Virus record (IMG/VR): IMGVR_UViG_3300039191_000213
Coordinates: 1-43,701 of that record
DNA length: 43,701 bases
Direction: 5' to 3' (one strand)
Source: a virus
The notes beneath the pieces are model-generated. The model was not told the origin of the DNA, searched no databases, and saw nothing but the letters and a program-made list of their open reading frames with translations. This document shows positions 17,373 to 32,228 of the stretch, piece after piece. The position numbers and the translations under genes are program-made. Each line of letters begins with the position of its first letter. Position 1 is the stretch's first letter.

Positions 17373-17735
17373 TTAATAGTCTCCCCCGGCAATCATGCCG
17401 TTCGTCAGCAAACCTTTTTTGGCCACGCCGACGTGGGAGCCGTAGTTCTCAATTTCGCCGGGCTTGATCTGGCGTTCGTCACGGCGGCGGTCCATAACAT
17501 CCATCTGGAACCGCTCATTGGATTCCTGAAGCTCCTTGTTCGCAAAGTATTGGCCTGCACCACCGACCACACCGGCAATGATTTGCGCGGTTTCCGGGTT
17601 TTTCTCGACCCAATCAAACGCCTTGGTGCCCCATTTTATCGCGCTTTGGTATAGACTTTTGTCCGCGATAGCTTCGCCGCCATAGTCGAGTACCTGAGCG
17701 GTGCTGTTAAGCGCCTGATCTAAGCTGATAGCCAT
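17373..17735 (-). CDS. Putative internal virion protein, small
   Basis: This 120-aa protein is preceded by a GGAG six bases before ATG 17735. Residues 1-45 are helical; about 50-68 is a Gly/Ala/Val stretch (IIAGVVGGAGQYFA) that could insert into a membrane. A charged helix follows (RFQMDVMDRRRDERQ). The C-terminus, with YGSHVGVAKKGLLTNGMIAGGDY, looks like a short processed tail seen in several phage internal proteins. The gene overlaps nothing and is tightly placed between the 440-aa and 395-aa genes. Assignment is by position and composition. Confidence 0.6.
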   Translation of the reverse strand: MAISLDQALNSTAQVLDYGGEAIADKSLYQSAIKWGTKAFDWVEKNPETAQIIAGVVGGAGQYFANKELQESNERFQMDVMDRRRDERQIKPGEIENYGSHVGVAKKGLLTNGMIAGGDY

Positions 17736-17750
17736 AACTGTCTCCGTTGC

Positions 17751-19073
17751 TTACGCGGTGGTCTGCTGTAAAAGTTGTGCTTCAAGGTCCGCCATGGTGG
17801 CTTGCCCGGACTCAATCGCGGTGCGCCACTGCTCAACGGTGCCCGAATCCGGGGTCTGTCCCGCCCGGCGAAAAGCGGTCACGATGGCGTTGCTAACGCT
17901 GGTTGTGCCTGTGCTGTCGGGGAATAGACCGGTGCTTAAAAGATCGCTGGCCAGGTTCTGATACAGCGCGCCCTGGAACGCTATATCGGTATCGCGGTTT
18001 GATAGGACTTGCTGGATAAGAGCCGCTTTGTCTGCCTGCTCAATGTCCGGGTTCATCTGTATGTTCTGGATTTGCGCGGACGCCTGGCCCACAAGGTCGG
18101 TGACGTTGTTTGCCATCACACCCCAGGCATTGGCATTGCTACTGGCGTAGAGCCTGGACAGCGCTTGGTCGGCTTCCTGAGTGGCTAACTGGCTGGTGTA
18201 ACCAAACTGCGTCTGCATCTTTTGCAGGTCGTAACCTTGGCCCTGTTCGAGAAGGTTGGAGCGAATAGAGAAATCGTTGGCCTGCCGGCGCATATCGTTG
18301 GTTTGGCCAGCGTTGAACTGCGATAGGCTTAGCGCAGACTGGCTATCCTGGCTGGCTATCGGCGTAGCCCGGTCAATCATTGCGCCCTGTGCTGCCTCAC
18401 CGGCCATTGAGCTGTTAAGCAGCCCTCGGTTGTTGGCAACCTGTTTGCCTTGAGTCGCTGCTCGCTGCATCAGCGGCGAATCTTTAGCTAGGATGGTATC
18501 GAGCAGGCCGGCCACGGTCTTGGCTTGTGGTAGCGTGGCCTGTGCGGCCCCTTGCAGTGACGGTGAGGCTGACTCCCTTTGTTCCTGCTGAGGATTGTCG
18601 TAACCGGTGCCCTCCTTGGAGCGGTTGAACGATTCGATCACCTGATCCCGCGTCATACCCCCGGCCATCTGGTTCAGCCAGTAATCGCGCCCGTTCTGGT
18701 CCGCATCGCGCCCTGTTTCGTTCTGATATACCGCGTCCACAAACGACTCGTTGGTGTTCCTGCCCTCATAAGACGCCGCCGGCTTAAAGCCCGACTTCTG
18801 ATAATCCGTCGCCAGTTTCTGGCCTCGGTCGTATCGCTGCTGCTGAGCGGCAACGCTGCTGTGCCCGGCAGGGGCTTGCGGCGCTGACGGAAGCCCGCTG
18901 GACTTGTACTTCTGCGCCTCGTTTGATGAGGCTATAGACTGCCCAATTTGGTCGAGAGTCATCTTCCCGCTGGACAGTTCGTTCTGCCAGTAGGCTTTGC
19001 CCTTGGCGTCCTTGCTGCCGTCACGGCCCAGGTATTGTGAATAAAAATTGCTGATTTCGGCGTTACCGGCCAT
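17751..19073 (-). CDS. Internal virion or tail protein with two DUF4214-like repeats
   Basis: This is a 440-aa protein with AGGAG before ATG 19073. Two copies of a DUF4214-like unit are visible. The first is at residues about 5-55 (FYSQYLGRDGSKDAKGKAYW) and the second at about 108-155 (VYQNETGRDADQNGRDYW, then GMTRDQVIESF). The C-terminal half is Gln/Ala-rich and helical, and ends with an acidic helix (TMADLEAQLLQQ). DUF4214 repeats occur in extracellular and phage structural proteins and have no known catalytic role. The position right after the fibre module and before the internal protein block suggests a virion component. Confidence 0.65.
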   Translation of the reverse strand: MAGNAEISNFYSQYLGRDGSKDAKGKAYWQNELSSGKMTLDQIGQSIASSNEAQKYKSSGLPSAPQAPAGHSSVAAQQQRYDRGQKLATDYQKSGFKPAASYEGRNTNESFVDAVYQNETGRDADQNGRDYWLNQMAGGMTRDQVIESFNRSKEGTGYDNPQQEQRESASPSLQGAAQATLPQAKTVAGLLDTILAKDSPLMQRAATQGKQVANNRGLLNSSMAGEAAQGAMIDRATPIASQDSQSALSLSQFNAGQTNDMRRQANDFSIRSNLLEQGQGYDLQKMQTQFGYTSQLATQEADQALSRLYASSNANAWGVMANNVTDLVGQASAQIQNIQMNPDIEQADKAALIQQVLSNRDTDIAFQGALYQNLASDLLSTGLFPDSTGTTSVSNAIVTAFRRAGQTPDSGTVEQWRTAIESGQATMADLEAQLLQQTTA

Positions 19074-19142
19074 GGTCTAGCTCCTGCTTTTGAAAGGGTC
19101 TACAGCGCCAGCCATAGGTCGCGGGGCACAATCCAGTGTCTT

Positions 19143-19625
19143 TTATAGCGTTGCGGCCAATTCAAACAAATCGTCAAGGTCCGTATCACTAAGCCCAAGA
19201 CTCTGCCCAAGCGTTAAAACAAAAGGCCAGTTACGTTCGACTTCTTGTGCAGTCTGCCAATCAACATTGGCTTCCGACCTTTCAGGCTCAGGAAGCGTGT
19301 CGATAGCACTTTGAACGCCCTCCAGATAACCCGCCTGAAGCAATGCACGACGAGCCTGGCGCAGGGTGACAACCATGGAGCCTCGCTTTTGACTCAGCAC
19401 CGCCCCCGCGTCGGCATCCATTGCAATTGTGCCCAGTTTTACCCCGCCACTGCCTGCATAGACGGGACGAGGATCGCCCGGCGCCTGTGCACCCGCCCAA
19501 AGCCCGGCGGGCGTTTGATAGGCGTGAACGGTGGCGTCAAAAGGCAGCGTGGGTAGCGGAAACTGCTCGCCGTCATAGTCAAGGGCACGGCCTTCACTGG
19601 TAGTGACAATCTGTAAATTCGACAT
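19143..19625 (-). CDS. Tail-fibre accessory (assembly) protein
   Basis: This 160-aa ORF starts at ATG 19625 and overlaps the end of the reverse transcriptase gene by 32 bp. A longer frame to 19760 lies wholly inside the RT gene and is unlikely. The C-terminal 80 residues have the pattern common in tail-fibre assembly proteins: VTLRQARRALLQAGYL, then IDTLPEPER, WQTAQEVERNWP, LGLSDTDLDDLFELAA. The N-terminal half is beta-rich. In other phages such genes follow the fibre gene directly; here the DGR genes stand between them. The likely role is folding or attaching the fibre. Confidence 0.65.
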   Translation of the reverse strand: MSNLQIVTTSEGRALDYDGEQFPLPTLPFDATVHAYQTPAGLWAGAQAPGDPRPVYAGSGGVKLGTIAMDADAGAVLSQKRGSMVVTLRQARRALLQAGYLEGVQSAIDTLPEPERSEANVDWQTAQEVERNWPFVLTLGQSLGLSDTDLDDLFELAATL

Positions 19626-20679
19626 CGGCAAAGTCTCGCTTGAGAATGAGTTGGTCAACAATGTGATTAACGGTATTCCAGCTATCGCAGTGCTTGGCGT
19701 AAGCCAAAAATGCGTGCAGGTGCTGCCGCACTTCGTCAAGCGAGGCGGCGCCTTTGGCATAACGGTGTTGCAGGATTTTTAGCTGTCGCCTGAATCGTTT
19801 AATGTTGCGCTTGCGCGGCAGGATGTGAGTTGACCATATCCGATAGCCGCACCAGTCCACCCCGGCGCTGGCCGGCCTTACCTGTGTTTTTGGGTTGAGC
19901 GATAAGCCGCGGCGAGCCAGACAGTCTTGCAGCTGATAAAGGCGCTCCCAAGCCTCTGATTTGCTGGAACACACAATCACTACGTCGTCCATATAACGCA
20001 CGTACTGTCCTGCGCCGTGCGTGTCCGTCATTTCGTGGTCTACGCAGTCCAAGGTGGCGTTGGCGTTCAACTGGCTGCTGAGCGCTCCCACGGGATGGCC
20101 AATGCCGTCGTCATGCCCGTAACCGCCAATCATTGCTCTCCAAAGCCACAGCGTGTCCGGGCACTCAATGGTTTTTGCGACGCTGTCCAGTACAGCGCTG
20201 TGAGGCAGTGAATCAAAAAACTTTCTGACATCCGCCTGAACCAAATACACCGAGTCCCAGCGTCTTTGAGCTTTTCTGAGCATGTGCTGCAGCGCCAGAA
20301 CGCCCGCCTGAGTGCCTTTTCCCTTTCGGCACGCGTAGCTGTGATGAATGAATCGACGCTCAAATAAGGGCTCGACAAAATCCACCACGGCATGGTGCAG
20401 CACCCGGTCTTTAAAGGGCGGCGCCTGAATCAAGCGCATTTTGGGCTCAATCACCACAAACTCACGGGCGCGGCCCGGGCTCCAAGTCTTGTGAATGAGA
20501 TGGTTGTGCAGATTAAGCAGGTTTTCTTCCAAATTGGCGGTGTACTTGACCACTTCTGGCCGGTACCGCTTGTGCTTTCTGGCCGCGTGATAGGCCTTCA
20601 TTAAATTGTCAAAGTCATATATCTCTTCGTAGAGCGGCACCGCATTATCCTTGTGCAGTAAAGGGTGAGTCACGGCCAC
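19594..20679 (-). CDS. DGR reverse transcriptase
   Basis: This 361-aa RT makes cDNA from the template-repeat RNA with frequent errors at adenines. Visible motifs include the first catalytic Asp in VQADVRKFFDSL (about residue 150), PVGALSSQLNAN (about 196-207, the SQ-containing motif 4 typical of DGR-type RTs) and RYMDDVVIV (YMDD 229-232). There is no maturase, protease or endonuclease domain, and the length suits the DGR family. The first possible start is GTG 20679. A second GTG two codons later (20673) has AAGG spaced better upstream and may be the real start. The gene follows the TR, as in phage BPP-1. The 3' end overlaps the fibre accessory gene. Confidence 0.93.
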   Translation of the reverse strand: MAVTHPLLHKDNAVPLYEEIYDFDNLMKAYHAARKHKRYRPEVVKYTANLEENLLNLHNHLIHKTWSPGRAREFVVIEPKMRLIQAPPFKDRVLHHAVVDFVEPLFERRFIHHSYACRKGKGTQAGVLALQHMLRKAQRRWDSVYLVQADVRKFFDSLPHSAVLDSVAKTIECPDTLWLWRAMIGGYGHDDGIGHPVGALSSQLNANATLDCVDHEMTDTHGAGQYVRYMDDVVIVCSSKSEAWERLYQLQDCLARRGLSLNPKTQVRPASAGVDWCGYRIWSTHILPRKRNIKRFRRQLKILQHRYAKGAASLDEVRQHLHAFLAYAKHCDSWNTVNHIVDQLILKRDFADVEFTDCHYQ

Positions 20680-20797
20680 CTTACGGCCGCCGCGCTCTGT
20701 TTATGTTTCGCCGTGAAGCGAGGAAAGTAGCCCCGAGTGATGTGGCTCTGTCCGCAAACCCTTAAGCGTGCGGCTTCTGGCCGGTAAAACGGTCGCT

Positions 20798-20906
20798 CGC
20801 GAGACGGCCCCCAATGTTGCTGTTCGAGTACGACGCTGCGAAGTTGCAGTTCACGATCCAAAGCCCGGCAATCGCGCCATAGCTCCAGTTGCCGCCGACG
20901 ATGGGG
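20798..20906 (-). repeat. DGR template repeat (TR)
   Basis: This is a non-coding copy of the fibre 3' end, lying between avd and the RT gene in the same orientation as the variable repeat. Read in the VR frame it would encode Asn/Tyr-rich variable positions: GGNWSYG, WIVNCNF, YSNSNIGG. Aligned without gaps to VR (offset 548 bp), it differs at nine positions, eight of them adenines on the coding strand. The 3' part (20801-20822) is identical to VR. It ends with a CTCGCGAG palindrome (20796-20803). Confidence 0.92.
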
Positions 20907-20935
20907 CCATCGAAATAAGCGACTTCCCTTTCTTG

Positions 20936-21334
20936 CTATTTGCTGCGCTCGTGCCGCAGCCAGCCGCCAAGAATGGCGCCGAGATCGTTGATGTGCTGTG
21001 CCCAGTCTCGATATTGACCGCCTGAGATGTGCCCGTACCGCTGGGCTTTGCGCACTTTTCTGCGCAGAACTTCAATTTCTATATCCAAATCAGTGAGCGT
21101 GGTTTTCTTTTGATAGCGCTTCCATGCCGTTAGGGTTAATCGCTCAATGCGATCAATGCACAGCCGCACTTCTGCGGTCAGCAAATGCCGTTCGGCCTTT
21201 GGGAAATTGACCAATGCCCGACGACTATAATCTTCCAATTCCTCCACTTTTGTGAGCATGCCCTCAAAGGGGCGAAGATGCTGATACGGGGCGTTATCAC
21301 GCCCCACTGCTTGAGACTGATCGACATGACTCAT
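20936..21334 (-). CDS. avd: DGR accessory variability determinant (Avd)
   Basis: This 132-aa protein starts at ATG 21334 within the ATGA overlap with the fibre stop, so it is translationally coupled to the target gene. It is all-helical and basic, with MLTKVEELEDYSRRALVNF, then AEVRLCIDRIERLTLTAWKR, IEIEVLRRKVRKAQRYG and AQHINDLGAILGGWLR. This is the four-helix, positively charged pattern of Avd proteins, which form a pentameric barrel that binds RT and template RNA. A longer open frame to 21478 runs back through the VR and is not the start. Its place between the VR and TR matches BPP-1. Confidence 0.88.
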   Translation of the reverse strand: MSHVDQSQAVGRDNAPYQHLRPFEGMLTKVEELEDYSRRALVNFPKAERHLLTAEVRLCIDRIERLTLTAWKRYQKKTTLTDLDIEIEVLRRKVRKAQRYGHISGGQYRDWAQHINDLGAILGGWLRHERSK

Positions 21335-23625
21335 AACACCACTCGCGCGAGACGGCCCCCAATGTTGCTGCCCGAGTACGACGCTGCGAAGTTGCAGAGC
21401 ACGAACCAAAGCCCGGCAATCGCGCCAGCGCTCCAGCTGCCGCCGACGACGGGGTAATACTCGCCAGCATCGCGCCATCGCACATAGTCTGGCAGTGTGG
21501 CAGATGAGTCATTCGCCGTTGAGTACGTGTTAGGAATGAATTCTTGGGGGGCAGAAGGCCGAAACGTGATGGGGTAAGTGAGGCTCCCGGAGTTTGCAAC
21601 GGCCTCGCTTGTGCTGAGCCAGGCACCGCCGTATGCGCGGCGCTCAATTACGCCGTAGAACGTACGCGCGCCGTCCATCCACTGCCAAACATTGCCCCAC
21701 AGCCCAACAATCCCCCGGTAGGTGGCCTGAGCCACGTCATCTGCATCGACGTTTGCAGCGCTCGACTCACTAACGCGCCCTTGGCCGGTTTTGGTCTGAC
21801 TGTCCATCGTTGCGTTTTCGACAAGATACAGCCACTGGATCGCCAGCCACATATCGTAATGATAAAGCCGAAAGCCGGTAACGCCTGATACATTTCGAGC
21901 CGTCGCCTTTGTTAGAAAATCCGTCAGCGAGGTGCTAACAAGCGGCAAGACGCCAGCGACAGATTGCAGCTTTCCGCCGCTCTCGCTGGCCTGATATTTT
22001 CCGCACTGAAATGCAGGGACTTCTGCGCCATCAAAAACGAACGCTGGCATGACAGTAAAGCCGGCAATCGGCTGGTCGCTGATCCACCATGCGGCATCCC
22101 CACCTGCAGTGCCGCGCTTGTAGTAAAACTTTGGCACTTCAACCATTACCTGCCCGTCAACGCTCACGTCTTGCATGCCGCCAAAAATCGGATGGCCGTT
22201 AAACCAGCTTGGGGATGGGGTCGCGATGGTGCTGCCAGCTTCATCAATGTGATCCCAGGTGCCGCCCGGGCCGCCCGTTGCTCGCAGTGCTACGCCGATG
22301 ACCTGAGCCGCCAGGACTGAGATCGTCTTGATGGATGCCGCTGATCGTGCCCCTACGTCATCTTCTGCGGCGACGCTAAAGGCAAAATCGGTATCGTCGG
22401 CGACATCTGGCGCAGTCACTTCTACGATTTCACCTTCTGCAATTCCAATAATCTTCGCGAACACGAAGTCGCCAGTGTCAGTCACAACGTACGTGAATGG
22501 GTCGCCGTCCGGGTCCGTGGCGCCGCTAAAGGACACCTGAAACGTCGAGTTCTTGCCCGTCTGTGTGGGGGCCGCGATGGTGATCGGGCCATTGGGGGCG
22601 TTATTGGCAACAACGCTGGCGCTGACTGTCTCGCTTGCGCTGGCATTGCCAATATCATCCAGCGCTCTGATCGTGGCTGACACCGTGCCGCCCACTGGCT
22701 GATCGACAGCTCGTGCGAGCGTAGCGGTCGCCCCCGTCGCGGAAACTGTTTCCGTGGTGCCGTCCCACCAGTTCACCTCAAACCCAGCGATCGCTCCCCC
22801 GCTATGGCGGCTTGTGGCGCTTGCTTCGATTTCCCAGTCCCCGGAGTCCTTTGTGGTGGGCGGCGCTGTAAGGGATAAGGTTAGCGCTCGCGTTGCCTGC
22901 AACTGCAGTTCGTCGGTAATTTTCTGAGATGACCAGGCATTGTTCGTGTCGGTAACCGCATCATTAATTGTGCCCTCAGCGAGCGTGGCCGCTGCAGCCT
23001 GGGCAATATCCGCGTAATACTTGGATCCTCGCAAGTTATTACCTACAACCGTCTGGCTGGTTGCCCAGTTTTTCGATAGCAACTGCGCTGCTTGCGCCGC
23101 GTCCCGAGCGGCATCCGCTTCCAGTTTCACAGCCTCGGTGTCAGACAGAGTTTGTGCGGCCTCTGCAGCGCTCTCGGAGGCCTGTGTCTTGAACGCCTCA
23201 ACATCTATCAGGTTGATCGCAATAACCGCACTGCCTGCCGCCAGGTCGTCGTACAGCACAGCGGCGGTGTGCCTGATAGCAACGACGTACAAGTTCTTGC
23301 TGACGGCATCGCGGAACACGTCATTCACAAAGTAATCGGTCGTGCTGGCCCAATCCCCTCGATAGTTAAAGCCTGACTGCAGGGCAAAATCACCGTTCTC
23401 GTCAAACCCCAGCACCTTTCGCCGGCGCTGTAGGGTTGTCGCGGTAAACTCCTGGCTGACACCGTTCTCGGTGGGAAACTTTAAGGCACGGTCGGTTTCG
23501 ATGTTGACGGCATCAAAACCGGTCGCCACCTGATCGAACTTAGCGTCCACTTCATCGGATCGCGCCGTGGTGCCGGGCTGGAATCGTTGGGCGCTGTCGC
23601 TGTTGTCGTAAAATTCGTTAGCCAC
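21331..23625 (-). CDS. Tail fibre / receptor-binding protein, DGR target
   Basis: This is a 764-aa protein. Residues 1-120 form the likely virion-attachment domain (MANEFYDNSDSAQRFQPG, then a short NYRGDWASTTDYFVNDV module). About 155-240 is an Ala-rich coiled coil (ESAAEAAQTLSDTEAVKLEA). About 260-440 has Ig- or fibronectin-like beta domains (DPDGDPFTYVVTDTGD). The C-terminal 300 residues form a C-type-lectin/formylglycine-enzyme-like fold with GLWGNVWQWMDG and a final WRDAGEYYPVVGGSW to GGRLARV. The last 40 residues are the variable repeat. The gene overlaps the tail-hub gene upstream by 8 bp and avd downstream by ATGA. The fold and role follow known DGR targets such as Mtd; the exact receptor is unknown. 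Confidence 0.88.
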   Translation of the reverse strand: MANEFYDNSDSAQRFQPGTTARSDEVDAKFDQVATGFDAVNIETDRALKFPTENGVSQEFTATTLQRRRKVLGFDENGDFALQSGFNYRGDWASTTDYFVNDVFRDAVSKNLYVVAIRHTAAVLYDDLAAGSAVIAINLIDVEAFKTQASESAAEAAQTLSDTEAVKLEADAARDAAQAAQLLSKNWATSQTVVGNNLRGSKYYADIAQAAAATLAEGTINDAVTDTNNAWSSQKITDELQLQATRALTLSLTAPPTTKDSGDWEIEASATSRHSGGAIAGFEVNWWDGTTETVSATGATATLARAVDQPVGGTVSATIRALDDIGNASASETVSASVVANNAPNGPITIAAPTQTGKNSTFQVSFSGATDPDGDPFTYVVTDTGDFVFAKIIGIAEGEIVEVTAPDVADDTDFAFSVAAEDDVGARSAASIKTISVLAAQVIGVALRATGGPGGTWDHIDEAGSTIATPSPSWFNGHPIFGGMQDVSVDGQVMVEVPKFYYKRGTAGGDAAWWISDQPIAGFTVMPAFVFDGAEVPAFQCGKYQASESGGKLQSVAGVLPLVSTSLTDFLTKATARNVSGVTGFRLYHYDMWLAIQWLYLVENATMDSQTKTGQGRVSESSAANVDADDVAQATYRGIVGLWGNVWQWMDGARTFYGVIERRAYGGAWLSTSEAVANSGSLTYPITFRPSAPQEFIPNTYSTANDSSATLPDYVRWRDAGEYYPVVGGSWSAGAIAGLWFVLCNFAASYSGSNIGGRLARVVL
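21346..21454 (-). repeat. DGR variable repeat (VR)
   Basis: This is the last 109 bp or so of the fibre gene (about residues 725-760). Codons that differ from TR change Asn to Gly, Leu or Ser, Ile to Phe or Val, and Tyr to Ala, all at positions that TR encodes with adenine-bearing codons. Its 3' border, identical to TR over 22 bp (21349-21370), is the likely initiation-of-homing segment. A perfect 10-bp palindrome, CTCGCGCGAG (21342-21351), overlaps its end. Confidence 0.92.
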
Positions 23626-25072
23626 GTCTCAATCTCCGTTCGCTGTAGGTCAGGTCATAGCCCAGCAGCTCGTGTGGCTCGCTGACGCCGTTGCTGTAGA
23701 TGGCAAAGTTTATTGCCGTACCCGAGCCGGTCACGTCGCCGGCTTCTTGAGCGACTACGGGCGCGGACCAGGCTATCTCTCCCCACTTGCCAACGCCCCA
23801 TAGGCCGCCACCCAGCAAAAAGGTCAGCGTCTGTCGTAGGCTTGCCGCTGTTTCTCCGCCGCCGAAGTCGAAGTCAGGGCGAAAGGTGATGTTGGCACTG
23901 GAGCCGGAGCGCACGTCCCAGAACACGCGACGAAAGCGCTTGCGTACACTGGGCTGCTTGAGGTCGGTGTAGGCCAGGGTCAGGAAGGCCCGGATAGGCT
24001 CTCCGGCAAAGCCCTGCGCTCCGCTGCCAAGGCGATAGACGTTGCCAACATCGTCACCGAACAGCACTGATTCTTCGCCGCTGTCGAACTCGCCGGCGTG
24101 CATCACTTGGGGCTTGTTTAGAAAGGAAACGGTGGTCGCCCCCGTAGGGCTCAGGTAAACGCCGCTGCCGTCGTCAAAGAAAACCCGGTACTGCGCCCGC
24201 CGCTTGCTGATTGAGCTGCACTGGACGCGCTCAGCGTAGCCTTCATCGGTGAACAACGGCTCGATCTGCGCCCCGGCCTGCATTTGCCGGAAGTCGCCAA
24301 ACTCTTGCGCGCTTTGCAGGTTTGAAATGCCACGCTCGGCAACGTAATAAGGTTGGATCAAGGACTGCAGCGAGTAGGGCTTGGCCCCGGAGTTGGGAAT
24401 GGTGGTGCGCAATTCAAAGTTTGCGCCGCTGCTGCCGTACAAAGTCTTGATGTTGTCTCGGCCGGTGACGTGAAGAACGCCGCCTGTGCCGTTGATTAGG
24501 CCCGTTAGCGCGCCACTGGTGCCAATTTCGCCCGCACCACCGGTTGACGCATCCCAGTTGAGCGGATCGCCTATGCCGGAGTGCTGCAAGCTGCCCTGCG
24601 GATAGCCCAGCATCAGGTGATTTTGATGAATGGCGATGTATTTCGCGCCCGTCATAGCGCCGGCAATCTCGCTCAGTGTGCCGTCCTTGAGCTGATAAGG
24701 CTTTGCGCCGCCAACCATGTGCAGCGCCCGCCCGGCCTCGGTCGCCAGAAAGTTGCCCTCGGCAAACTCATAGCGCCCCGTCGCCAGGGTTCCGATGCTG
24801 GCCCAGGCCCCGCCAATCAGCTTGTACAGGTCAGACGTGGCGCCGTTCTCGCGGATCGCGTAATGCTCGTCCTTGAACGTACACACGCCCAGTATCGGCC
24901 CGGTCCCTGGCAAGGTGTCGCCCAGCTTGGTGTAGCCACTGATTCGACGGTAACCCCCGGTCACAGGGCATTCGTAGTTCACAGCAAACAAACATTGTCC
25001 TGGCTTGGCCTGTCGGGGCGGTGTCATCAGATCAATACCGCCGCCCAGGCCGACATACGCGGTCCGGTTCAT
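23618..25072 (-). CDS. Tail hub / nozzle structural protein
   Basis: This 484-aa protein is beta-rich throughout, beginning with GLGGGIDLMTPPRQAKPG, a start typical of podophage tail proteins that plug the head-tail channel. It has repeated short sheet-forming units (GTGGVLHVTGRDNIKTLYGSS, DDGSGVYLSPTG, FGDDVGNVYRLGSG), as expected for a beta-propeller-like nozzle. The C-terminus is YDLTYSERRLRRG. It overlaps its upstream neighbour by ATGA and the fibre gene by 8 bp. It lies between the head-tail adaptor and the fibre, matching the order of P22/N4-like tails. The exact homolog cannot be fixed without a search. Confidence 0.7.
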   Translation of the reverse strand: MNRTAYVGLGGGIDLMTPPRQAKPGQCLFAVNYECPVTGGYRRISGYTKLGDTLPGTGPILGVCTFKDEHYAIRENGATSDLYKLIGGAWASIGTLATGRYEFAEGNFLATEAGRALHMVGGAKPYQLKDGTLSEIAGAMTGAKYIAIHQNHLMLGYPQGSLQHSGIGDPLNWDASTGGAGEIGTSGALTGLINGTGGVLHVTGRDNIKTLYGSSGANFELRTTIPNSGAKPYSLQSLIQPYYVAERGISNLQSAQEFGDFRQMQAGAQIEPLFTDEGYAERVQCSSISKRRAQYRVFFDDGSGVYLSPTGATTVSFLNKPQVMHAGEFDSGEESVLFGDDVGNVYRLGSGAQGFAGEPIRAFLTLAYTDLKQPSVRKRFRRVFWDVRSGSSANITFRPDFDFGGGETAASLRQTLTFLLGGGLWGVGKWGEIAWSAPVVAQEAGDVTGSGTAINFAIYSNGVSEPHELLGYDLTYSERRLRRG

Positions 25073-25683
25073 GCCAGGCTCGGGGGGAGTTCGACGCGCG
25101 GTAGCTGGGATTCCATCAGAAGGATCTCCATTTTCACAGCGTTACGGCCGGCCTGTTGCGCGACTTCTTGCGCATTTTCGTACAGGGCGTACTGCATCAT
25201 GGCCCGGTACACCACGCACAAATGGAAACGCGAGGGCATACGCGGTTGATCCGCGTTATTGACCAGCTCTTGCGGGGTGCGCCAATACTCAAACGTCAAG
25301 TTGCCCGCGCTCGCAGGGGGTGCATTCAAGTGCAGCACTCCATCCGGCGCAATGGCCACGCGACCAAAGGTGCCCGCCACGTCCTTTTCCAGCTCATACC
25401 AAGGCACTACCTTGATTCTTTCGCCTGCAAACTGCAGTGTTTCCGACTCCCACACATCAAAGTCGGACGGCAGCGAATACTCGGTGTCCAAAGCTGTCAG
25501 CTCAACCTCGCCCCGAGCCCAATCAAACGCCCAACGTCGCTCGTTCTGCAGCTCGCGCCATGCCGTTGCTGTCCAGCCGACAAAGCGGGCGTACTCCCCG
25601 GACTGACTGACCACGTTCGCAGGTCCATTACCTGCAGCGCCCACTTCCTGGCGCAAGCGTTGGCAAAGCTCCAAGAAGGTCAT
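25069..25683 (-). CDS. Head-tail adaptor protein
   Basis: This is a 204-aa protein. It has the pattern of podophage adaptors that bind under the portal: a first helical domain MTFLELCQRLRQEVG, then SGEYARFVGWTATAWRELQNERRW. A middle region with YSLPSDFDVWESETL and a YWRTPQEL strand follows, and then a long C-terminal helical part. Adaptor proteins with this N-terminal helix plus WxxLQxxxxW signature usually precede the tail nozzle gene, as here. It overlaps the next gene by ATGA. The call rests on the N-terminal pattern and on gene order. Confidence 0.7.
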   Translation of the reverse strand: MTFLELCQRLRQEVGAAGNGPANVVSQSGEYARFVGWTATAWRELQNERRWAFDWARGEVELTALDTEYSLPSDFDVWESETLQFAGERIKVVPWYELEKDVAGTFGRVAIAPDGVLHLNAPPASAGNLTFEYWRTPQELVNNADQPRMPSRFHLCVVYRAMMQYALYENAQEVAQQAGRNAVKMEILLMESQLPRVELPPSLA

Positions 25684-30589: not shown

Positions 30590-31312
30590 TCAGTATCCTG
30601 CAATTGGGTCGCCTGGTAAGTAGCTGCTAATCGAGTTTTCAGCAGGGCGTGTGACAGCGACTGAAACCTTCATCACTCCGTAGCGCATAGCATCCATGAG
30701 GTGGTCGTTTTTCTTCACGACTCGGCCCTTCTCATCACGCCGGTACAATCGGATTTCACTCAGAGTGTGCTGCAGGGTTCTGAAAATCTTGAGTCGACCC
30801 GTTGAAAGGCGGTCTAGCGTTTCCAACAACCCTGATTCAATGGACTTGTTGGCCTTGTGAAGAATTAATCCCTCAGCGATGTACAGCTTCCACAGGTCTT
30901 TTCCATCAATCTGGGACCGACCGCGCGCTGCGGTATCAATAACCCCAGGTATCCATTTGCCTCGCAGTTGAATGCCCTTTGAATGTATCGGTGGCTCAGC
31001 TTCGCCCCGGTAATGCTCGGAGTAAGCGTAAATGATGTCGGTGTCGCGATCGTGAGCAATCCAGATAGCGGCGGTTTTATTCCAGCCAACATCCATGCCG
31101 TACATGCGCGGGAACCAGGGCGGGATCTGGAAGGGATCAATAACAAAATCTTCTTCGGGCACTGGGTATATCGCGCCGGCGCCAAGGCTTGGGTTGCCGT
31201 TCATCCGTGCGTCAACCAGATGTGGGCTGATGCTTTTTGCCATATCATCGATGTCCGTCTGCTTGAGGTGTGGGACGTGTGACCAGCCGGCTTGCACAAC
31301 GTATCGACTCAC
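30590..31312 (-). CDS. Terminase large subunit, nuclease half
   Basis: This is a 240-aa protein starting at GTG 31312, which overlaps the TAG of the small ORF upstream (TAGTG). It begins YVVQAGWSHVPHL, the segment that normally follows the ATPase domain in one polypeptide. RNase H-fold acidic residues are visible: MYGMDVGWNKTAA, PGVIDTAARGR and NDHLMDAMRYGV. This is the DNA-cutting domain. No ATPase motif is present; that half is encoded at 31518-32228. All three catalytic aspartates are kept, so it looks active and not a pseudogene. The separation occurs at the domain linker. Confidence 0.85.
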   Translation of the reverse strand: MSRYVVQAGWSHVPHLKQTDIDDMAKSISPHLVDARMNGNPSLGAGAIYPVPEEDFVIDPFQIPPWFPRMYGMDVGWNKTAAIWIAHDRDTDIIYAYSEHYRGEAEPPIHSKGIQLRGKWIPGVIDTAARGRSQIDGKDLWKLYIAEGLILHKANKSIESGLLETLDRLSTGRLKIFRTLQHTLSEIRLYRRDEKGRVVKKNDHLMDAMRYGVMKVSVAVTRPAENSISSYLPGDPIAGY

Positions 31313-31521
31313 TATTTACCTATGACGAAGGTTGCTCCGGCAATCTTCATTTCGTCACCGGTGCGAGATTTTGGATAGATATGCCGAGCAATGTTCAGGG
31401 ACAGCATGCCCCGCTTAATTTTTCTTTCTGCAACCAGGTCAGTGAGATTGCGCAACACCAAAGAATTGCAGGTGTCGGCCGGTACGTTCACTTTGGTTTC
31501 TGGCCGTTGGATGCTAGTCAT
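31312..31521 (-). CDS. 69-aa ORF between the terminase halves
   Basis: This small gene overlaps both neighbours: ATGA with the ATPase half and TAGTG with the nuclease half. It is basic, with NSLVLRNLTDLVAERKIKR and KIAGATFVIGK, perhaps two helices and a final strand. It has no HNH, GIY-YIG or LAGLIDADG motif, so it is not a recognisable homing endonuclease. The neat overlaps imply a coupled three-gene unit. It could be a bridging or regulatory subunit of the packaging motor, or a neutral insertion. I do not recognise a family. Confidence 0.6.
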   Translation of the reverse strand: MTSIQRPETKVNVPADTCNSLVLRNLTDLVAERKIKRGMLSLNIARHIYPKSRTGDEMKIAGATFVIGK

Positions 31522-32228
31522 AAGGGAACCTGCTCGTGTCTTGCTTCCAGAAAATCAATAACCAGCTCGGTGAGGCCCGCCAGTGGTGTGAAAGTGATTG
31601 CCACTAAACCCTGAGTAGTCATCGTTCGGATGAGGGCTTCGTCGTACACGTTTTTTGGAACTTCTTCATCCAGCCAGATGAAATCCTGCTCAGTGCCTTG
31701 AAAGATCTTCCGGCCCTGTTCGTAGCTGCGTAACATCAAGCGACTTGTACCGCCGCTTGTGTGCTCAACGGTAATGCCTTCGTAAAGGTTGGCAACGCCT
31801 CGTGCTGGGGTCGGCTTGCCCAGCTTATCGCCAGGCAGTAGGCCGGAACCGAACTCCGGGGTACCCCAAAGACCGCCAAGCAGCTTGTTCTGAATAATGT
31901 CTCGCGTGGTTGTGCTGGTGTCGCCTGCAGCAAGGCACTGCACTGGCCTGTCAAAGCGGTGGCCTTCCCACCAAACCGGATACTCACCCGTCATGTGGTA
32001 GGTCAGCTCACAACCACCCGCCACGGTCTTGCCAACCCGGTTCGCGGCCATAAACAGCCGTTCCCGGTGAAGGCTGCCGGCCCGGAAAAACTCAAGGTGC
32101 TTTGGGTACAGCTCGCGCCGGTAAGGCCCGGTGTCTGGAAAAAGCTGCTTGATGAGGGTGTAGCGCCTGCGTCTGGCCTTTTCCTCCAGCGCCTTTAGTA
32201 GCTCCCGCTTGGCGCTGTCACTTTCCAT
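31518..32228 (-). CDS. Terminase large subunit, ATPase half
   Basis: This is a 236-aa protein with the full ATPase domain of TerL. It has Walker A AANRVGKT at 61-68, the typical CLAAGDTSTTTRDIIQNKLL stretch, Walker B DFIWLDEE at about 182-189, and the coupling motif TFTPLAGLTE at about 212-221. It ends at ARHEQVPL with TGA, where related terminases run on into the nuclease domain. It overlaps TerS upstream by 11 bp. Motor function in DNA packaging follows from the family; the split is seen directly. Confidence 0.88.
   Translation of the reverse strand: MESDSAKRELLKALEEKARRRRYTLIKQLFPDTGPYRRELYPKHLEFFRAGSLHRERLFMAANRVGKTVAGGCELTYHMTGEYPVWWEGHRFDRPVQCLAAGDTSTTTRDIIQNKLLGGLWGTPEFGSGLLPGDKLGKPTPARGVANLYEGITVEHTSGGTSRLMLRSYEQGRKIFQGTEQDFIWLDEEVPKNVYDEALIRTMTTQGLVAITFTPLAGLTELVIDFLEARHEQVPL

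Follow-up and report, generated by a model that had tools for sequence, protein, structure and literature searches.

The window analysed here is a 43,701-nucleotide stretch of viral DNA (IMG/VR record IMGVR_UViG_3300039191_000213, positions 1 to 43,701). On its minus strand, a tail-fibre gene with a variable repeat (VR) at its 3' end is followed by the gene of the accessory protein Avd, a template repeat (TR) and a reverse transcriptase (RT) gene, the order known from phage BPP-1. An earlier note on this DNA had described a complete diversity-generating retroelement (DGR) with its four parts in this order on one strand, and this description was borne out.

The target gene (21331..23625, minus strand, GTG start) encodes a fibre of 764 amino acids that matches a tail protein family (PHROG 5302, 7.7e-40). 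Its C-terminal ~324 amino acids correspond to a C-type-lectin DGR variable domain, with a profile match to TaqVP of Thermus aquaticus (5vf4, E=8.6e-12) and a Foldseek match to the same protein (8.4e-6) obtained with a low-confidence model as query (pLDDT 54.5). TaqVP, a DGR variable protein with a solved crystal structure, adopts a C-type-lectin fold (PMC6328139). Profile and fold matches run along the window domain, VR included, which agrees with the lectin-like fibre end proposed in the earlier note; compared with TaqVP, the window domain forms the end of a 764-residue phage fibre. The VR lies in the 3' end of the gene of a target assigned to the C-type-lectin fold on a strong profile match and a weak structure model. 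The fibre tip may bind a receptor, and its diversification may change the host range. The ~205 nucleotides directly before the VR resemble the tips of the L003 type, and three contigs (L002, L007 and L042) carry a different tip allele in a background otherwise near-identical to the window. A short patch of the gene that precedes the fibre gene (24273-23973) differs by ~7% from four close relatives in an otherwise identical background.

The VR (21346..21454, minus strand) is the last coding part of the fibre gene and is 92% identical to the TR (20798..20906, minus strand), which has IMH* at its 3' end; the pair shows the IMH/IMH* difference. Over 109 nucleotides there are nine mismatches, eight of them at TR adenines (8/19, against 1/90 at other bases; Fisher P=1.6e-6). 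No other direct repeat in window positions 17500-25500 comes near this pair in length. No second VR was found elsewhere in the window, where the next best match reaches 45%, and the window holds no further TR copy.

Avd (132 amino acids; 20936..21334, minus strand) was recognised by Pfam (bAvd, 3.3e-18), PHROG (3.1e-26) and NCBIfam (3.8e-22, at 78.6 bits slightly below the 80-bit cut-off). Its ATG overlaps the fibre stop in an ATGA, as noted previously. Within avd, about 40 nucleotides downstream of the VR, lies a hairpin or cruciform, GGGGCGT-GATA-ACGCCCC (21288..21305, minus strand), with a 7-bp stem and a GRNA loop; its chance expectation in 60 nucleotides is 0.0014. The spacing is equal in relatives, in which the stems vary by paired changes (GGGGCGT/ACGCCCC, GGGGCGC/GCGCCCC, CGCGGCC/GGCCGCG and others), the stem of L014 keeping 6 bp, while the loop is GRNA in every relative compared. 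Guo and colleagues described DGR hairpins of 7-10 bp with a GRNA loop, 4-34 bp from the VR (PMC3240598); the window hairpin fits this rule, although its spacing slightly exceeds that range. Other layouts occur among the loci examined. The TR-VR distance in L040 (5151-6752) is 1441 nucleotides against the usual ~550, with space for an extra gene between target and Avd, and one 32-kb contig (L062 1398-3556, together with L054) has two tandem VR target genes with GAAA hairpins, far from the avd-TR-RT core.

The RT (19594..20640, minus strand; PHROG 1423, 2.9e-112) has 348 amino acids when read from GTG 20640, and its open frame extends to GTG 20679. The later start is more likely because the last conserved RNA hairpin of the preceding spacer covers GTG 20679; GTG 20640 is preceded by AAGGA, and the relatives fit the later start. 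The motifs YMDD and GHPVGALSSQ, the first and the SSQ of the second already seen in the earlier note, agree with the DGR signature ([IVL]GxxxSQ plus YxDD). The best solved-structure match is to entry 8ub7 (E=4.9e-49), which we take to be the BPP-1 RT complex. The earlier note had also proposed placing the RT in a tree. In a tree of 23 RTs with three group II intron RTs as outgroup, the window RT is nested among phage DGR RTs, apart from BPP-1 and separated from the group II intron RTs (100/100). The outgroup is small and long-branched, which makes this a rough test of the separation from other RT classes. It groups with RTs of viral contigs and one from an Ideonella plasmid (100/100). Identity as a group II intron RT was rejected, the score for the maturase family TIGR04416 being 129.5 bits against a cut-off of 300. 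The Ideonella dechloratans plasmid (L064 9702-13101) carries two tandem avd-RT pairs beside phage tail genes, a double DGR whose RTs are placed well apart from each other in the tree.

Between TR and RT lies a structured spacer of the DGR RNA (20650..20803, minus strand) with five helices supported by covariation across relatives. Two-sided changes occur in 16 of 34 pairs and 95.7% of cells are paired, a level reached by none of 500 shuffles; slid controls did not come close to the real score. One of the helices pairs IMH* with the spacer. An Rfam search with the spacer RNA gave no match. RT, Avd and spacer RNA are predicted to function in the window DGR.

Variation among relatives is adenine-specific. 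Pooled over 18 loci, the window among them, 214 of 428 TR adenines were changed in the VR compared with 7 of 1462 other bases, a rate of 0.5% (Fisher 2e-149), and the adenines were replaced by G (110), T (78) or C (26). Six matches to the TR 3'-end pattern (L008, L013, L016, L017, L021 and L022) have no TR/VR pair and were excluded. The VRs of near-identical phages differ while Avd and spacer are identical: L002 and L007 have 17 VR differences with 0/403 in Avd, and L003 and L005 have 11 with 0/421. These comparisons show that the DGR was active in the recent past of this phage group, and it may be active at present in the window sample. The RT of L007 (6001-7082) has a 1-nucleotide frameshift in the contig, either real or a sequencing error.

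The carrier is almost certainly an uncultured temperate phage with a complete standard DGR acting on its tail-fibre tip. It encodes a CI-type repressor, an anti-repressor, an SU10-like portal and a protein of 4086 amino acids in which helicase and ADP-ribosyltransferase domains are present. None of the genes scanned was recognised as an integrase. Judged by the capsid, the nearest isolate is Pseudoalteromonas phage vB_Pun_Y3 (46%). A pattern search of a species-genome collection for the host found no relative. The large terminase (30590-32228, minus strand) reads as two open reading frames, an ATPase part (31518-32228) and a nuclease part (30590-31312), with a 69-amino-acid frame between them.

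The carrier had been described as unlike BPP-1, and indeed the RT and the CI-like repressor are its only matches to BPP-1 proteins (E<=1e-3); membership of the BPP-1 phage group (Rauchvirus) was rejected, since structural genes are not shared. The DGR itself resembles that of BPP-1 (mtd-avd-TR-brt) in part order, Avd, IMH/IMH*, a hairpin with a GRNA loop, a structured TR-RT spacer, adenine-specific VR changes and a tail target. It differs in that target and Avd overlap by ATGA (separate genes in BPP-1), the hairpin lies inside avd, the target is of the TaqVP type, and the RTs share 36.7% identity and occupy different parts of the DGR tree. The DGR of Chromohalobacter phage YPCBV-1 is similar in that a target resembling formylglycine-generating enzyme overlaps Avd by 4 nucleotides and is followed by the RT, but its RT lies elsewhere in the tree and its context is a baseplate.

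Downstream of the RT is a fibre-associated accessory gene (19143..19625, minus strand; 160 amino acids). Its position, and the tail-fibre families that match the C-terminal part of the L003 counterpart, suggest that the product is a fibre chaperone. The adjoining gene (17751-19073, minus strand) encodes a protein with two DUF4214 stretches that has a homologue in the L018 backbone. Viral contigs L003-L005, L010, L014, L018, L019 and L023-L025 have fibre tip, Avd, TR, structured spacer, RT and accessory N terminus as in the window, and in most of them the neighbouring genes are unlike the window's. For L003, L004, L005, L014 and L024, the part in common runs from fibre residue ~245-259 through Avd, TR and RT to accessory residue ~101-121, and the flanks read gave no match to other window proteins (tblastn 1e-4). 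L018 has window backbone genes and a more distant RT (68%). The major head proteins of L003 and the window belong to different families (phrog_267 and phrog_1357), but a protein encoded before the capsid gene matches phrog_13678 in both, so the two backbones are distant and not certainly unrelated. By these sequence comparisons, the exchangeable unit consists of fibre residues ~245-764, Avd, TR, RT and the first ~110 accessory residues, and it has moved between phage backbones.

The earlier note had proposed an older fibre/chaperone pair as the site into which the cassette was inserted. Adjacent pairs without the DGR core do exist, in Pseudomonas phage HHBS14_1 and in L058, but loss of the core would explain them equally well, and L058 retains a VR-like sequence, so that its core may be elsewhere. 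Moreover, the module boundaries in relatives fall inside the fibre and the accessory gene, not at the ends of the core. The direction of change is therefore not polarised and the moving unit is larger than the core; insertion of the core between fibre and chaperone is possible, though we consider it somewhat improbable.

One feature of the window departs from its closest relatives. Against the close relatives L002 and L007, its Avd, spacer and RT are almost the same, but its TR is changed at 9/109 positions. Compared with L002, the window is nearly unchanged in the fibre N terminus (3/735), Avd (0/398), the gap (0/29), the spacer (0/118) and the RT (3/1086), whereas 9 of 109 TR positions are changed: seven A-to-T, one T-to-A and one T-to-C. 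At the flanking rate, nine changes have a probability of 1e-12, assuming independent point changes, and this improbability argues for replacement of a tract. That all seven adenines became T has a probability of 8.5e-4 under the VR spectrum (post hoc). Elsewhere TRs are stable, with 0 differences among L003, L004, L005, L010 and L019 while Avd differs at up to 66/421, and 0/134 between BPP-1 and vB_BbrP_003 against 33/1652 in the block. The literature holds within-species TR variants in Treponema denticola (PMC4891356); a report of such an adenine-to-T change over identical flanks was not found in it. A search for additional members of the L054 group, made to gauge the frequency of TR change, returned the same four contigs only.

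The window VR was probably written from the changed TR, because it shares with it T at six of the seven sites and C at site 57; had the older TR been the source, the probability of this would be about 2e-4 (post hoc). The sole non-adenine TR/VR mismatch is the seventh changed site. This agreement, together with an RT, Avd, spacer and hairpin that are intact and nearly unchanged, makes it very improbable that the DGR is decaying, with its parts persisting, VR rewriting lost and the TR eroding in its adenines, even though adenines number 19 in the window TR and 25 in the TRs of L002 and L007, a nominal protein diversity of about 10^14.2 has shrunk to 10^10.7, and the RT of L007 contains a frameshift. 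That TR and VR reads were joined into a chimera during assembly or amplification deserves more weight but is still unlikely. The virus contig was derived from a metagenome, and a second contig with the window TR was not found in a search from which records very near the window were possibly left out. The TR of L006 (1514-1624), moreover, has seven changed adenines in its 3' half, where it equals the VR of L006 itself, while the same phage in L010, where Avd and VR are identical, has a TR of the usual type; the L006 TR may be a chimera or a real conversion. The window TR, in contrast, has none of the eight bases by which the VR departs at adenines, its changed adenines became T only, and T25 and A49 (numbered from CCCC) occur neither in its VR nor in relatives' TRs. 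TR-like and VR-like bases alternate within a few nucleotides, and this alternation of changed and unchanged sites rules out a single-crossover TR/VR chimera. We consider that a whole tract of the window TR was probably replaced; candidate causes are VR-to-TR conversion, cDNA homing into the TR, the import of a tract from a foreign TR, or artefact.

Taken as a whole, the locus is, with very high confidence, a complete BPP-1-type DGR that diversifies the tail-fibre tip, with fibre tip, Avd, TR, RT and the start of the accessory gene forming one exchangeable module. By analogy with work on BPP-1, an RNA spanning the end of avd, the TR and the spacer would be bound by RT and Avd, and cDNA would be primed near IMH*, with errors opposite template adenines. 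The mutated cDNA would then be substituted for the VR in the last part of the fibre gene, beside the hairpin, the TR remaining as source. In its relatives, hairpin and RNA are preserved by compensatory change, and the block that transfers across phage backbones unites the fibre tip with the mutator and a part of the accessory gene.

The DGR is ordinary and well formed, and its lone unusual feature is that the normally constant TR is altered, mostly at adenines, relative to near-identical phages. A bolder reading, which we hold to be doubtful, is that DGR templates are rewritable, mutated sequence being occasionally copied into the TR from the VR or by the element's own cDNA homing. If so, TR rewriting would have been caught twice, in the window and in L006, and a rewritable TR would hard-wire residues that diversification had found (Ile, Tyr and Phe in this case) and narrow the later search. 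If confirmed on real DNA, the changed TR would bear on the rarely asked question of how the constant DGR template evolves, and on whether residues selected in the VR could return to the TR.
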